DNA of 64,000 nt from the NCBI RefSeq assembly GCF_007750855.1, contig NZ_CP036291.1:558001-622000 (forward strand), given 5' to 3'. The notes under the pieces are model-generated. The model did not search any database. It worked only from the letters and a program-made list of their open reading frames with translations, and was not told the origin of the DNA. Position 1 is the stretch's first letter; each line of letters starts with the position of its first letter. Below, one piece after another: positions 8,431 through 62,875 of this stretch. A program made the translations under genes and the position numbers. This stretch comes from Pirellulimonas nuda. Its GTDB lineage: Bacteria > Planctomycetota > Planctomycetia > Pirellulales > Lacipirellulaceae.

Positions 8431-8622
8431 AAACCACAGCGCCACAGACAACACGGAAGGAGTGAAGAGATTGAAACCGCAGATGAACGCAGATGCATCT
8501 AGGTGTGCTGAGTCTCCTTCCCTACCTTTTCTCCTCATCTGCGTTCATCTGCGTCTATCGGCGGTTCCCTTCTACCTTCTTCTCTATCCGTCTCTATGTG
8601 CACTTTAACGCCGTGGTTCTTT
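8431..8622. repeat. Long imperfect inverted-repeat element (no gene)
   Basis: Left arm 8431-8496 (AAACCACAGCGCCACAGACA ... AACCGCAGATGAACGCAGATG) faces right arm 8537-8622 (CATCTGCGTTCATCTGCGTC ... CCGTGGTTCT). Arms are about 65-85 bp with gaps and the ends read ACCAC/GTGGT. One of six elements of this architecture in the window. Confidence 0.75.
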
Positions 8623-46600: not shown

Positions 46601-46817
46601 TGACCACGGATAGCACGGATTTCACGGATACGGATTGCCACGAAAAGGCACAAAAAGCACAAAGAAAAACAATCAGAAGATCGCTCGCAAAGACGCGGAG
46701 ACGCAAAGGGCTTCGTTTGCAATTTTGCGCCTCTGCGACAAACTGGCGTCTTGTGCTTTTTGTGCCTTTTTGTGGCTATCGTTCGTCATCCGTGAAATCG
46801 GTGCTATCCGTGGTTCG
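46601..46817. repeat. Long inverted-repeat element (no gene), same termini as the GxxExxY unit
   Basis: Left arm begins TGACCACGGATAGCACGGAT and continues through a GGCACAAAAAGCACAAAGA stretch. The right arm mirrors it (CTTGTGCTTTTTGTGCC ... CCGTGAAATC.GTGCTATCC). The first ~28 bp are the same as the termini of the element at 52438-52928. It separates the paired DUF1549 and DUF1501 genes. Confidence 0.85.
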
Positions 46818-51166: not shown

Positions 51167-51333
51167 GGAACCGCCGATGGACGCGGATGAACGCAGATAG
51201 AATCCTGAGCAATCAGCAATCAGCTTTGGGCCTGCTGGGCGATAAAGCATCTTTGAAGGAACCCCCATCGGCGTCTATCTGCGTCCATCGGCGGTTCTCC
51301 TTTCCGTCTCTGTGTCCTCGGTGACTCTGTGGT
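51167..51333. repeat. Inverted-repeat element between permease genes
   Basis: GGAACCGCCGATGGACGCGG...AACGCAGATAG (51167-51200) faces CTATCTGCGTCCATCGGCGG (51275-51294). The right side continues TTTCCGTCTCTGTGTCCTCG...CTCTGTGGT without a left counterpart. The GTG start codon of the next gene lies in this CTCTGTGGT end. Confidence 0.7.
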
Positions 51334-52428
51334 AAATCCGTCCAACCCTACCGATTCCAACCAAGCCCCCAGCGGGTTCTGGACCGAGGCGTGGCGGCGG
51401 TTCCGCAAGCGCAAGCTGGCGATGGCGGCCCTGGCGTACGTGATCCTGCTGTCGCTGGTGGCGCTGTGCGCGCCGCTGTTGGCCGGCACCAAGCCGATCA
51501 TCGTCAAGTACAAGGGGCACATCTACTTCCCCGTGCTGGGTACTACGTGCGGAGCTGGGAGCCGGCCGTCTTCCGGCAGCGGCCCTTCCGCACCCGCAAC
51601 TACGCCAAGTACTTGCAGCAGGAAGACCCCGATAGCTGGGCCGTCTGGCCGCCGATCTTCCAAGACCCGTACCGCCGGCTCGAAGCAGGGGACTGGCCCG
51701 GCCGGCCGGGAAACCCCATCGGGTTCGCCGCCCGCCCCAGCTGGCAGAACCCGCTGGGCGCCAACCAGCAGGGGGTCGACGTGCTGGCGCAGCTCATCTA
51801 CGGCGCGCAAATCTCGCTGAGCGTGGGGTTCATCTCGATGGGAATCGCCGCGGCCATCGGCATCACCATCGGCGGGCTGGCGGGCTACCTGGGGGGCTGG
51901 GTCGACGTGCTGCTCAGCCGGCTGATCGAGGTGGTGATGTGCATCCCCTCGCTGGTGCTGATCCTCGCGCTGGTGGCGCTGCTGGACAACGTCACCAACT
52001 TCCACCTGATGGCCGTGATCGGCATCACCAGTTGGACCGGCATCGCCCGGCTCACGCGTGCGGAGTTCCTCAAGCTCAAGGAGATGGACTACGTCACCGC
52101 CGCCCGCGCGCTGGGCGCCGGGCGGGTGCGGATCATGGTGCGGCACATCCTGCGCAACGGCCTGGCGCCCGTGCTGGTGCCGATCACGTTCGGCATCGCC
52201 TCGGCGATCCTGGTCGAGGCGGGGCTCAGCTACCTGGGCTTCGGCGCGTCTCCCCCCAACCCGAGCTGGGGCACGCTGCTGAGCTCCGGCCGGTCGTCGA
52301 TCCAAGAGATGTGGTGGCTGATCGTCTTCCCGGGCCTCGCGATCTTCTTCACCGTGCTGGCGTACAACCTGATCGGCGAGGGCCTGCAGGAGGCCACCGA
52401 CCCCAGGCTGAACCAGGCGGGGCAGTGA
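51329..52428 (+). pseudogene. Oligopeptide ABC transporter permease (DppC/OppC type), frameshifted
   Basis: GTG start (MVNPSNPTDSNQAPSGFWTEAWRRFRKRKLAMAALAYVILLSLVALCAPLL), typical OppC N-terminus with its cytoplasmic FWxEAWRRFRKRK and first helix. One base seems missing near 51540 (GTGCTGGG|TACTAC), after which the other frame continues YYVRSWEPAVFRQRPF to the stop at 52428. The remainder is intact: NPLGANQQGVDVLAQLIYGAQISLSVG, several membrane helices, the EAA loop TAARALGAGRVRIMVRHILRNGLAPVLVP and the end ALxxxGEGLQEATDPRLN. As for the upstream permease, either decay or a base-calling error. Confidence 0.8.
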
Positions 52429-52437
52429 CGCACGGAA

Positions 52438-52928
52438 GTTTTTGACCACGGATAGCACGGATTTCACGGATGATCAGACGACAATGCAACTAAGATCCCG
52501 CAAGCCGTCCGATGAAGCACGAAGCGTTGAGCAGAAGCGTGATCGGAGCGGCGATGGCGGTGCTGAACGAACTGCGGCCGGGGCTCGATGAAAAGGTTTA
52601 CGAGAATGCGATGGTCGTCGAGCTCAAACATCGCGGTCATCAAGTCGATCAGCAATCGCGGTTTCCTGTCTACTACCGCGAGTCGCAAGTCGGAGTTCTC
52701 GTACCGGACTTGATTGTGGACGGGGTTCTGATCGCAGACCCCAAGGTCGTTTCCGTCTTTAACGACAATCACGTCGCCCAAATGGTCGGCTACTTGGCGA
52801 TCTCGCAACTGGAAGTCGCACTCTTGCTAAACTTCAAGCACGCAAAGCTGGAGTGGAAGCGGATCGTCCGCTAGTAGGCTTCCTGCGACAGATCATCCGT
52901 GAAATCCGTGCTATCCGTGGTCAAAAAC
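52438..52928. mobile_element. 491-bp unit with perfect 38-bp terminal inverted repeats carrying a GxxExxY gene
   Basis: 52438-52475 and 52891-52928 are perfect 38-bp reverse complements (outer end GTTTTTGACCACGGATAGC). They enclose one gene and nothing else, and sit exactly between the OppC-type and OppD/F-type genes. The inner termini match the gene-less element at 46601-46817. No target-site duplication was recognised beside the ends. Confidence 0.8.
52512..52874 (+). CDS. GxxExxY family, PD-(D/E)XK nuclease-like protein
   Basis: 120 residues. The family motif is GLDEKVY (G24, E27, Y30), inside VIGAAMAVLNELRPGLDEKVYENAMVVEL. A nuclease-like core follows: VPDLIVDGVLIADPKVV, where D66 and D76-x-K78 fit the PD-(D/E)XK pattern. 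The C-terminal helix and strand QMVGYLAISQLEVALLLNFKHAKLEWKRIV are standard for the family. Full length. No biochemical role is known to me. The gene begins 36 bases inside the left arm of a perfect 38-bp inverted repeat and ends 16 bases before the right arm. It interrupts the oligopeptide transporter operon. All putative active-site residues are kept, so it is not an obvious remnant. Confidence 0.88.
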   Translation: MKHEALSRSVIGAAMAVLNELRPGLDEKVYENAMVVELKHRGHQVDQQSRFPVYYRESQVGVLVPDLIVDGVLIADPKVVSVFNDNHVAQMVGYLAISQLEVALLLNFKHAKLEWKRIVR

Positions 52929-52931
52929 GTC

Positions 52932-54791
52932 ATGTCCGAAGCAGTAATCGACGTCGCCGATCTCCGCACCTACTTCCACACCGACGACGGCGTGGTCCCC
53001 GCGGTCGACGACGTGTCGTTCCGTGTTGAGCTCGGCCGCACGCTCGGCATTGTTGGCGAAAGCGGCTCCGGCAAGAGCGTTACGTCGCTCTCGATCATGC
53101 GGCTGCTCGCGTCGTCGGCCAAGATCGAGACGGGGCGGATCGCGCTGTTTGGACGCGACCTGGTGGGCCTCCCCGAGCCGGAGATGCGCAAGATCCGCGG
53201 CAGCGACATCAGCATGATCTTCCAGGAGCCGATGACCTCGCTCAACCCGGTGTTCACCGTCGGGGCGCAGGTAGACGAGGCGCTCCGGCTGCACCAGGGG
53301 ATGACCAAGGCCGAGGCCCGGGCGCGGACCATCGAGCTGTTCGATGAGGTCGGCATCCCGCACCCCGCGATGAGCGTTGACAAGTACCCGCACCAGATGT
53401 CCGGCGGGCAGAAGCAGCGGGTGATGATCGCGATGGCCCTCTCCTGCGACCCCAAGCTGCTGATCGCGGACGAGCCGACGACCGCGCTCGACGTCACGAT
53501 CCAGGCGCAGATCCTAGAGATCCTCCGCCGCCTGCGCGACTCGCGCGGCATGGCGATCCTGTTCATCACGCACGACCTGGGGGTGATCGCCGAGATCGCC
53601 GACGACGTGCTGGTGATGTACCGCGGCGAGGTGGTAGAGCAGGGGCCGGTCTTGCAGATCTTCGAGTCGCCGCAGCACCCCTACACCAAGGGGCTGCTGG
53701 CGTGCCGCCCCAGGCTCGACACCCCCTACCGGTTGCTGCCGACCGTCAGCGACTTCATGGAAACACGCGAGGCGAACGGCAAGGTAGAGCTGATCGAGAA
53801 GCGCCTCGACGACGCCCGGCTCAACCAGCTCAAGACCACCGGCCGCGGCCGGCTGCTGCACCCCAAGAGCGAGCTCGAGGGGATCGGCCACCCGTGGACC
53901 GAGGGGCAGCACGCCCCCGACACCGTCGCCGTGCCCGAGGGCCAGAAGCCGCTGCTCTCGGTCCGCGACCTGAAGGTCTACTTCCCGATCCGCAGGGGGA
54001 TCTTCTCGCGCGTTTCGGACTACACCCGCGCGGTCGACGGCGTCAGCTTCGACGTCTACCGCGGCCAGACCCTCGGCCTGGTGGGGGAGAGCGGCTGCGG
54101 CAAGACCACCACCGGACGGGCGATCTTGCGGCTGATCGAGCCGACCGCCGGCACGGTGCTGTTCGGCGACAAGTCTGTGGGCGAGCTGGGGGGCAGCGGG
54201 CTGCGGGCCATCCGGCGGCAGATGCAGATCATCTTCCAGGACCCGTACGGCTCGCTGAACCCGCGGATGACGATCGAGTCGACGCTGGTCGAGCCGATGG
54301 TGATCCACCGCCTGGCCCGCACGCGCGGCGAGCGACGCGACAAGGCCGTGGCGCTGCTGGAAGAGGTGGGGATGTCCGCCGCGCACCTGCGGCGCTACCC
54401 GCACGAGTTCTCCGGCGGCCAGCGGCAGCGGGTCTGCATCGCCCGGGCGCTTGCGGTCGAGCCCGACTTTATTATCTGCGACGAGTCGGTCTCTGCGCTG
54501 GACGTCTCGGTGCAGGCGCAGGTGCTCAACCTGCTGAAGAAGCTGCAGGAGACCCGCGGGCTGACCTACGTGTTTATCAGCCACGACCTGTCGGTCGTGA
54601 AGTTCATGGCCGACATGATGGCCGTGATGAACGACGGCAAGATCGTGGAGTTCGGCCCGTCGGAGAACATCTACGCCAACCCCCACCAGGAGTACACGCG
54701 GGGGTTGATCGAGGCGACGCCCAAGGACGACCTAGAGCACCTGCGGGCGCGGGTCGCGCGTCGCAACGCAACCATCGCAAGCAACCAATAG
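52932..54791 (+). CDS. Oligopeptide ABC transporter, fused OppD-OppF ATPase
   Basis: 619 residues from ATG 52932. Two complete ABC ATPase domains in one chain. First: Walker A GESGSGKS, signature [15 protein letters not shown], Walker [13 protein letters not shown]. Second: GESGCGKTT, signature [15 protein letters not shown], Walker [13 protein letters not shown]. Each has the oligopeptide-type C-terminal extension ([27 protein letters not shown]). It energises peptide uptake with the two permeases upstream. The frame is intact, unlike the permeases. The start codon lies four bases after the right arm of the GxxExxY element, so the native leader was replaced or pushed away. No substrate-binding protein gene is nearby. 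Confidence 0.93.
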
Positions 54792-62671: not shown

Positions 62672-62875
62672 CCACAGAGATGGACAGAGGCCACTCGCCA
62701 AGACGCAAACAACTCTCGCAGAGGCGCGGAGGGAACAACAAGAACAACCAGTGACCAAGCCTCAATAGACAAGCCGAGCTAGCGGATGTCTGTTGGACAT
62801 CGCGGCTTGGTCATCGGTCATGCTTTCTTTTCTCCCTCCGTCTCAGTGTTCTCAGTGGCTCTGTGGTTCATCATC
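62669..62875. repeat. Long imperfect inverted-repeat element (no gene)
   Basis: Left TTAACCACAGAGATGGACAG ... GGCGCGGAGGGAACAACAAG (62669-62740) faces right TTTTCTCCCTCCGTCTCAG ... GGCTCTGTGGTTCATC (62828-62875). It begins in the stop codon of the DUF1499 gene and extends into the 3' end of the convergent glycosylase gene. Confidence 0.7.

Follow-up and report, generated by a model that had tools for sequence, protein, structure and literature searches.

Small genes of the GxxExxY family form a real class of genomic element, in which a single gene of a nuclease family lies between inverted arrays of a short DNA word. The case that leads to this class lies in Pirellulimonas nuda, in a window of 64,000 nucleotides (nt), C1:558001-622000, within a single-contig genome of 6.62 Mb, and the element occupies positions 52438 to 52928 of that window. 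A new class of system is proposed, in which a lone Cas4-like nuclease would read the arrays of its own element and, acting in trans, would also sustain gene-less copies. The evidence comes from the inverted arms themselves, their spread among phyla, the match between array unit and protein lineage, the conservation of the arms, the link between copy number and gene, and the presence of different elements at one and the same site.

The left arm of the window element (52438-52475, forward strand) begins with ACC and continues with three CACGGAT units at 9-bp steps (52447-52453, 52456-52462 and 52465-52471). The right arm (52891-52928, reverse strand) is its perfect reverse complement over 38 of 38 bp, with units at 52895-52901, 52904-52910 and 52913-52919, and arms extended to 46 nt have 93% complementarity. 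The sole gene between the arms is an intact open reading frame (ORF) at 52512-52874 on the forward strand, which encodes a GxxExxY protein (PF13366/TIGR04256) of 120 amino acids with a predicted Cas4/lambda-exonuclease-like PD-(D/E)XK fold. Over the whole 6.62-Mb genome, the counts are 40 for the pattern ACCACGGATNNCACGGAT and 0 for the reversed pattern. Two claims of a preliminary description of this DNA are borne out, namely that the gene is enclosed by perfect 38-bp inverted repeats and that a full-length GxxExxY protein with D66 and D76-x-K78 is all they enclose.

PF13366 is the only Pfam match of the enclosed gene (E 1.7e-32, 112.7 bits against a cut-off of 22, residues 5-118 on profile positions 2-117 of 117), and the protein also matches the GxxExxY profile TIGR04256 (E 4.6e-35, 120.5 bits, cut-off 35). 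Its residues of catalytic type are D66, D76-x-K78 and Q90, with E at position 76 in most relatives; G24, E27, Y30, D66, K78, Q90 and N107 are invariant across 43 sequences. In a structure model of the protein (predicted local distance difference test score 96.4), the fold appears closest to that of Cas4, and a nuclease role is predicted. Foldseek gave no match below 0.001 with this model, its top hits being LHK-Exo, lambda exonuclease and Cas4-type proteins. A second aligner ranked Cas4 SSO0001 (4ic1) first (Z 10.6, root-mean-square deviation 3.2 over 98 residues), and the domains that come next, of restriction, Holliday-junction and exonuclease type, score Z 8 or lower, a range in which a shared fold is by itself hardly informative. 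A Cas4b profile matches one family member (2.4e-4), a sequence search for a solved homologue found none that was convincing (best E 0.25), and a PADLOC defense search with the window protein returned no match. Cas4, lambda exonuclease and the AddAB nuclease domain include the best fold matches of GxxExxY and share with it the pattern of D, E/D-x-K and Q-x-x-x-Y. Unlike them, GxxExxY has a domain of only about 116-120 amino acids, and the arms of the window element enclose no cas gene, helicase or annealing protein.

Across GxxExxY loci, inverted arms are general and the word they carry is variable. Arms were scored without gaps (+1/-2) over 300 bp on either side of the gene, with a threshold of 12; for the window genome's own six loci, 700-bp flanks were used. 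All six PF13366 matches in that genome (five full, one fragment) have inverted arms. The window element scores 38, and the words at the other five are CACAGAG/CACGGAG, CGCAGAG/CGCGGAG, CGCCGAT/CGCGGAT, CGCCAAG and CGCGAAT-like. Relatives were sampled in three ways: the best-scoring hit per genome (30 loci), the best 80 of 490 relatives in named genomes from many phyla, and 63 further loci that we picked from among the best-scoring matches listed. Weak and divergent homologues are thus under-sampled, because the loci came from best-scoring matches. In the first set, 30 of 30 loci score at least 12, with a maximum of 11 at 60 control positions. In the second, 58 of 80 score at least 12 and 42 at least 15, and 8 of 337 control positions in the related loci reach 12 and 0 reach 15. 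In the third, 54 of 63 score at least 12. The same score is reached by only 2 of 30 ribosomal L20 genes of relatives (range 7-12, median 9) and 1 of 30 ParE toxin genes (median 8.5). The preliminary description had named a general lack of inverted repeats among homologues as grounds to refute its reading; these counts do not refute it. Overall, 146 of 177 GxxExxY loci from many bacterial phyla score at least 12. When arms are instead recognized by their unit grammar, both, one or neither is found at 103, 34 and 40 of the 177 loci, as against 0, 4 and 56 of the 60 L20 and ParE loci. Locus L158, which has the arms of L033 and is probably the same locus, is counted in the 177 and was left out of the arm/protein correlations and of the grammar and tree sets; a gene fragment (L013) is outside the 177.

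What is the grammar of the arms? The typical arm consists of three 7-bp units, C-R-C-N-N-A-[G/T], mostly at steps of 8, 9 or 10 bp. Elements scoring below 14 were dropped for the grammar and the arm/protein correlation, which left 121 of 176; three-unit arms are the commonest among these (62 of 121), and 16 of 121 have no unit by this pattern. Element length has a median of 481 bp, and the class spans about 440-640 bp. Between the two arms of an element, mismatches amount to 29% in spacers, 24% at unit position 4 and 0-8% at positions 1-3 and 5-7, a contrast that owes something to the definition of a unit, which was required to match the pattern in one arm or both. The mismatches show no G-U bias (74 vs 89). 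Given where they fall and the lack of a G-U surplus, it is the words that are conserved and not their pairing, which points to reading at the DNA level. For proteins at a distance below 0.3, the arms share 6-mers at a level of 0.293, as against 0.023 for the inner spacers and 0.034 for sequence outside the element. Arms are therefore alike where adjoining spacers differ, which suggests selection on the arms, or their repeated renewal.

These features bear on the idea that the arms form a long RNA stem, comparable to 23S rRNA intervening sequences, or serve as operators, and so protect or regulate a gene within an operon, with no mobility involved. The window element does fold as one long stem (-226.5 kcal/mol, z -8.8), and elements between operon genes are under purifying selection. 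Even so, a role in RNA or regulation is an improbable account of the class as a whole, since it is the units that are conserved rather than the pairing, since arrays occur at up to 264 places per genome, and since 38 of 39 paired arrays in unselected stretches are 54-212 bp long, too short for the nuclease gene (the other, doubtful by its arms, is 324 bp). No Rfam match was found within 52300-53050 of the window, nor at gathering level in five relatives.

The unit word follows the lineage of the protein. For pairs of elements from different genomes, arm similarity correlates with protein similarity (Mantel r 0.41 over 121 elements; shuffles within genomes give 0.21 or less, 0/5000), and the correlation persists when each site contributes a single element (n=78, r 0.34, shuffles 0/5000). 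The most similar arms of another genome belong to the nearest protein relative there in 47 of 65 cases, where 12.9 would be expected. Base composition is not the cause of the match, because arms within one genome are less alike (0.020) than arms of different genomes (0.030). A tree of 70 site-unique proteins, from which elements scoring below 13 or with fewer than 2 units were dropped, was compared with 200 shuffles. For unit base 7, this tree needs 3 changes vs 17.7 when shuffled (minimum 14); unit base 5 changes 10 times vs 20.7 (minimum 14), the unit step 18 times vs 27.8 (minimum 21) and unit base 4 18 times vs 24.0 (minimum 19). The match between unit and protein is probably best explained by a nuclease that reads its own arrays. 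The preliminary description had likened the tie between this protein and its flanking repeat to that of RAYT proteins. The predicted match of unit to nuclease lineage was found, but active mobility of the window copy was not. A candidate contact for unit base 7 was considered and set aside. An Arg two residues before the catalytic D is present in 41 of 50 proteins with G-ending units and in 2 of 20 with T-ending units, and the window protein has V64 at this position; the association is confounded with descent, because base 7 changes only 3 times on the tree, and since two T-unit proteins retain the Arg, its contact with base 7 is a prediction only.

Gene-less copies of the arrays track the gene across genomes. 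The three-unit pattern is nearly absent from 11 genomes without PF13366 (0 in eight, then 1, 1 and 13) and occurs 0 to 264 times per genome in 48 genomes with it; across the 59 genomes, the reversed control gives 0-3 per genome. Array count and PF13366 gene number have a rank correlation of 0.74, and the partial rho is 0.65 given the counts of S23 and ParE genes, for which the values are 0.09 and 0.00. Word by word in 11 genomes, copies of a word with a resident matching gene have a median of 16 vs 1.5 without (one-sided p 0.006). Genes were assigned to words by hand, with L207b and L230b (8-bp steps) taken as CACGACG and L218 (10-bp steps) taken as CACGGAT; for genome G027, the assignment drew on 4 of its 6 PF13366 hits. 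The interiors of the window's gene-less copies, judged by eye, are unlike the gene-bearing element. The gene-less elements that the preliminary description saw as relatives of this one are real, both in the window and genome-wide, but their match to a resident gene is not constant.

How might such a system work? The nuclease would read the 7-bp units at the DNA level, hold both arms, and make its cut in or close to the outer "ACC" edge. The segment would then be placed or copied elsewhere, at a low rate, by the repair machinery of the host, and a nuclease of matching lineage would act in trans to retain and spread gene-less arm pairs. We infer that the nuclease moves the arrays; binding, cutting and movement are all put forward as proposals. 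It is also conceivable that the mover is a different enzyme, one that transports whatever DNA such arms enclose, that the nuclease is cargo, and that arm likeness among related genes arises only from co-travel. This is unlikely, to about the same degree as the RNA and regulatory account. Some gene-less families do lack a resident matching gene, a Mantel correlation is no proof of contact, and movement driven by the protein is something we infer. On the other hand, arms stay alike where adjoining spacers do not, also at sites common to several genera; arrays are nearly absent where there is no gene and follow gene number after S23 and ParE counts are removed; and ParE and L20 genes are without arms.

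The window element has a permease ORF on one side, with its end at 52428, and on the other an ORF for an ATP-binding cassette (ABC) transporter ATPase of the peptide-transporter type, with a likely start at 52932 (dppC and dppD are our own labels for these neighbors). This agrees with the split transporter operon of the preliminary description. To compare the dppC-dppD gap, matches were found in 46 of 59 genomes and 30 loci were taken; one partial match (L287) and 4 loci without an upstream dppC were left out, and 25 remain, including the window. Five of these 25 gaps hold GxxExxY genes, of two subfamilies, nine hold other inverted-repeat inserts (including CACGACG, CACCAAG/CACAAAG and 7-bp kinds), and two, in distant relatives, are empty (25 and 45 bp). 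In another genus (G021), the gap contains the same element, with 74% protein identity, pN (nonsynonymous differences) 0.20 and pS (synonymous differences) 0.91, at which synonymous sites are saturated; its CACGGAT words are kept and its spacers have changed. The window copy is old. Hence, the "minimal mobile unit" of the preliminary description is a real inverted-arm unit, but the recent insertion that the term implied does not agree with an identical site occupied in a second genus. In three other genera (G004, G020 and G016), the same gap holds a different GxxExxY subfamily with other arms. At another site, the gene of L048 is 29-37% identical to the genes of other genera there and has other arms. 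Because unlike subfamilies with other arms occupy the same gaps in different genera, these gaps were filled independently. Within the dppC-dppD gap, loci L262, L280 and L286 carry a subfamily with a GHLEK[VI]YE motif and an arm word such as CCACGAAAAGGCAC.

Once present, the elements are long-lasting: in 12 chosen site groups, pN was lower than pS for every one of 87 pairs, five of these pairs being L048 vs an unlike element. Active mobility of the window copy, which the preliminary description had suggested, is not supported, given the shared site, the purifying selection and the lack of a clear target duplication. The behavior is slow and RAYT-like, unlike that of a busy insertion sequence. 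Carriage by phages or plasmids was considered and rejected: searches with one query protein each found no relative in viral contigs, none among 50,697 phage records and 8 among 72,556 plasmid records. Of the 4 examined out of these 8 plasmid records, three look chromosome-like, with neighbors such as radA, fab genes, or an adenine deaminase and a guanylyltransferase, and the fourth, from Prevotella, has mostly hypothetical neighbors. The least probable of the alternatives is a repair or recombination nuclease domesticated by the host, with arrays as chromosomal sites like those of REP functions and an origin as an element only in the distant past, which accommodates the same-site inheritance across genera, the uniform purifying selection, the scarcity in phage and plasmid records and an armless operonic gene in Sphingomonas, but not the unlike subfamilies at an identical site in different genera, the several unlike elements per genome, or the gene-less copies that differ between congeners.

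Several observations weigh against a nuclease that reads and spreads its own arrays. First, 31 of 177 GxxExxY loci score below 12, of which 22 have at least one array by grammar and 9 have none. The Sphingomonas gene just mentioned (L361) lies in a fabD-GxxExxY-fabG arrangement with gaps of 33 and 2 nt, which leave no room for arms; this copy in a fatty-acid operon may be domesticated. Second, part of the arm/protein correlation could come from linkage without recognition, and unit base 2 tracks the tree only weakly (18 changes vs 22.5 shuffled, minimum 17). Third, copies and genes do not always coincide. Of the 18 pairings of a genome with a word for which no gene is resident, 4 hold 31-178 copies: CGCCAAG in G014 (178) and G027 (155), the largest families of that word, and CACGGAT (35) and CACGACG (31) in G018 have no matching gene among those seen. 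Conversely, some resident genes have few copies (4, 2 and 4 in G021; 4 of CGCCAAG in G005), and the 13 three-unit arrays of G007 stand in a genome with no PF13366 hit. The families without a matching gene could result from loss of the gene, from looser specificity or from a second factor, and it is possible that the G007 arrays are relics after gene loss. Fourth, direct signs of movement are scarce. Many elements are at an identical site in several genera, and 9 of the 25 dppC-dppD gaps contain 99-624 bp with no clear inverted repeat. In a comparison of two congeners (G014 vs G027, 400 kb, aligned parts 79% identical), a site could be resolved in 39 cases, of which 1 is cleanly empty and 38 have DNA, with 69 more unresolved; a gap counted as filled if it had at least 60 bp or was not shorter by 40, irrespective of element identity, and one site may count from both sides. 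Among 200 elements, target-site duplications show no clear excess at the outer edge (best 3 vs 0.5 over 190 settings, with uncertain edges and old elements). A signal at offsets of +2 or more was rejected, since it lies inside the units and is produced by them. At the window site, intergenic DNA of relatives is not alignable, and they are too far away for a base-exact empty site. Gene-less copies do differ between G014 and G027 at some sites, such as A 29605, A 109362 and B 139550, with boundaries that are not base-exact. Other intergenic inverted inserts without CRC units, such as GC-rich stems with CCCTCCCC arms, also differ between these two genomes (L289-L328).

How do these elements relate to known systems? 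RAYTs are HUH/Y1 enzymes that act on hairpin palindromes, and the repeat of the repetitive extragenic palindromic (REP)/RAYT system is a palindrome tagged with GTAG/CGTC. The GxxExxY system shares with REP/REPIN and RAYT (TnpA-REP) a small single-gene unit with flanking repeats, many gene-less copies, long persistence and a repeat matched to the enzyme lineage; here, too, the gene is flanked by its own repeat, of which the genome also holds numerous copies without a gene. It is nevertheless not a REP/RAYT, since enzyme and repeat both differ. The protein is of the PD-(D/E)XK kind, matches PF13366 alone and is no HUH/Y1 transposase, and the arms are arrays of the 7-bp unit CRCNNA[GT] at 8-10 bp steps with no sign of pairing constraint. 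By analogy, the GxxExxY system likely works in a similar manner, and the balance of evidence favors GxxExxY genes as coding members of a widespread class of small elements that would act like REP/RAYT with another enzyme. Papers on REP/REPIN and RAYT include PMC8266576, PMC8049555 and PMC3116915, with PMC3733652 for the GTAG/CGTC repeat. Terminal inverted repeats are also shared with insertion sequences and miniature inverted-repeat transposable elements; unlike a classical insertion sequence, the GxxExxY element has no known transposase gene (PF13366 only). In the open literature searched, GxxExxY appears in 2 papers, each time in passing, PF13366 in 1 and TIGR04256 in none, and among the matches listed nothing concerns these repeats or PD-(D/E)XK elements with inverted repeats; subscription papers and preprints lie outside this literature, and an earlier report is possible.

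A second, parallel arrayed system exists. S23/IVP (PF05635) genes of relatives (L059-L088), taken as a comparison group, also lie between inverted arrays, with 26 of 30 scoring at least 12. The repeats in their arms recur strictly every 7 bp (0.72 at lag 7 and 0.73 at lag 14); these arms contain the CRCNRAK unit in 0 of 26, and follow the S23 protein (r 0.19, 1/5000 shuffles, over all pairs, with shared sites and genomes included). The S23/IVP protein is unrelated to GxxExxY and its arm grammar is its own; the window element has no PF05635 gene and, as noted, no Rfam match. In PMC4990558, 23S rRNA intervening sequences with S23/IVP are described as about 430 nt long, with one small ORF, inverted ends and a scattered distribution, and a mobile origin is discussed. 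Intergenic arrays of short words in many copies are described for TAACTGA heptamers in Beggiatoaceae and GGGAATC in Xanthomonas (PMC4679880, PMC4692102); the passages on these heptamers mention no GxxExxY or S23 gene, and one suggests a repeat-binding protein as a possible mobile element (PMC4679880). The 7-bp period of both heptamers would seem to resemble the S23 class rather than the GxxExxY class. More tentatively, there may be general "array-ended" elements in prokaryotes, in which a small non-transposase protein recognizes inverted arrays of short words and maintains gene-less copies in trans. Such elements would have arisen at least twice, in one case around a Cas4-like nuclease, with units 8-10 bp apart, and in another around the four-helix bundle of S23/IVP, with a strict 7-bp period, and 23S rRNA intervening sequences and TAACTGA-like heptamers would be special cases of the S23 kind.

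What are the implications? First, a family found in many phyla, and usually annotated only as "GxxExxY protein" with no function, now has a testable role. Second, the lineage-specific 7-base arrays point to an undescribed family of small genomic elements, which would account for the dispersed intergenic CACAGAG, CGCCAAG and CACGGAT arrays in these genomes. Third, the system would resemble REP/RAYT with a Cas4-type nuclease as its enzyme, and would be a natural case of lineage-specific DNA recognition by a protein of 120 residues. Fourth, the parallel with S23 suggests a possible home for the puzzling intervening sequences of 23S rRNA.

The window holds further arrays, and three of its gene-less elements share arms with gene-bearing elements of the same genome. 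One (46603-46814) has CACGGAT arms as in the gene-bearing element, with an array of another unit family (CGCAAAG/CGCGGAG) inside. Another (51170-51295), between permease ORFs of the same operon, has arms with the words CGCCGAT/CGCGGAT/CGCAGAT, which resemble the arms around the GxxExxY gene at C1:2001015. A third (8476-8565) has CGCAGAT/CGCCGAT arms. A probable gene-less element (62715-62867) has unlike arms, CGCAGAG on the left and CACAGAG on the right, and a single array on the reverse strand, ACCACAGAG..CACCGAG..CACAGAG (51308-51331), had no partner in the array scan. In the window genome, arrays resembling CCACGAAAAGGCAC are nested in or beside CACGGAT arrays (L018, L022, L025). In the apgM region of several genera (L051, L207, L224, L230, L248), a distance of about 1.7 kb separates two GxxExxY elements whose words belong to different families; in L051, a gene that we take to be phosphoglycerate-mutase-like stands between the two.
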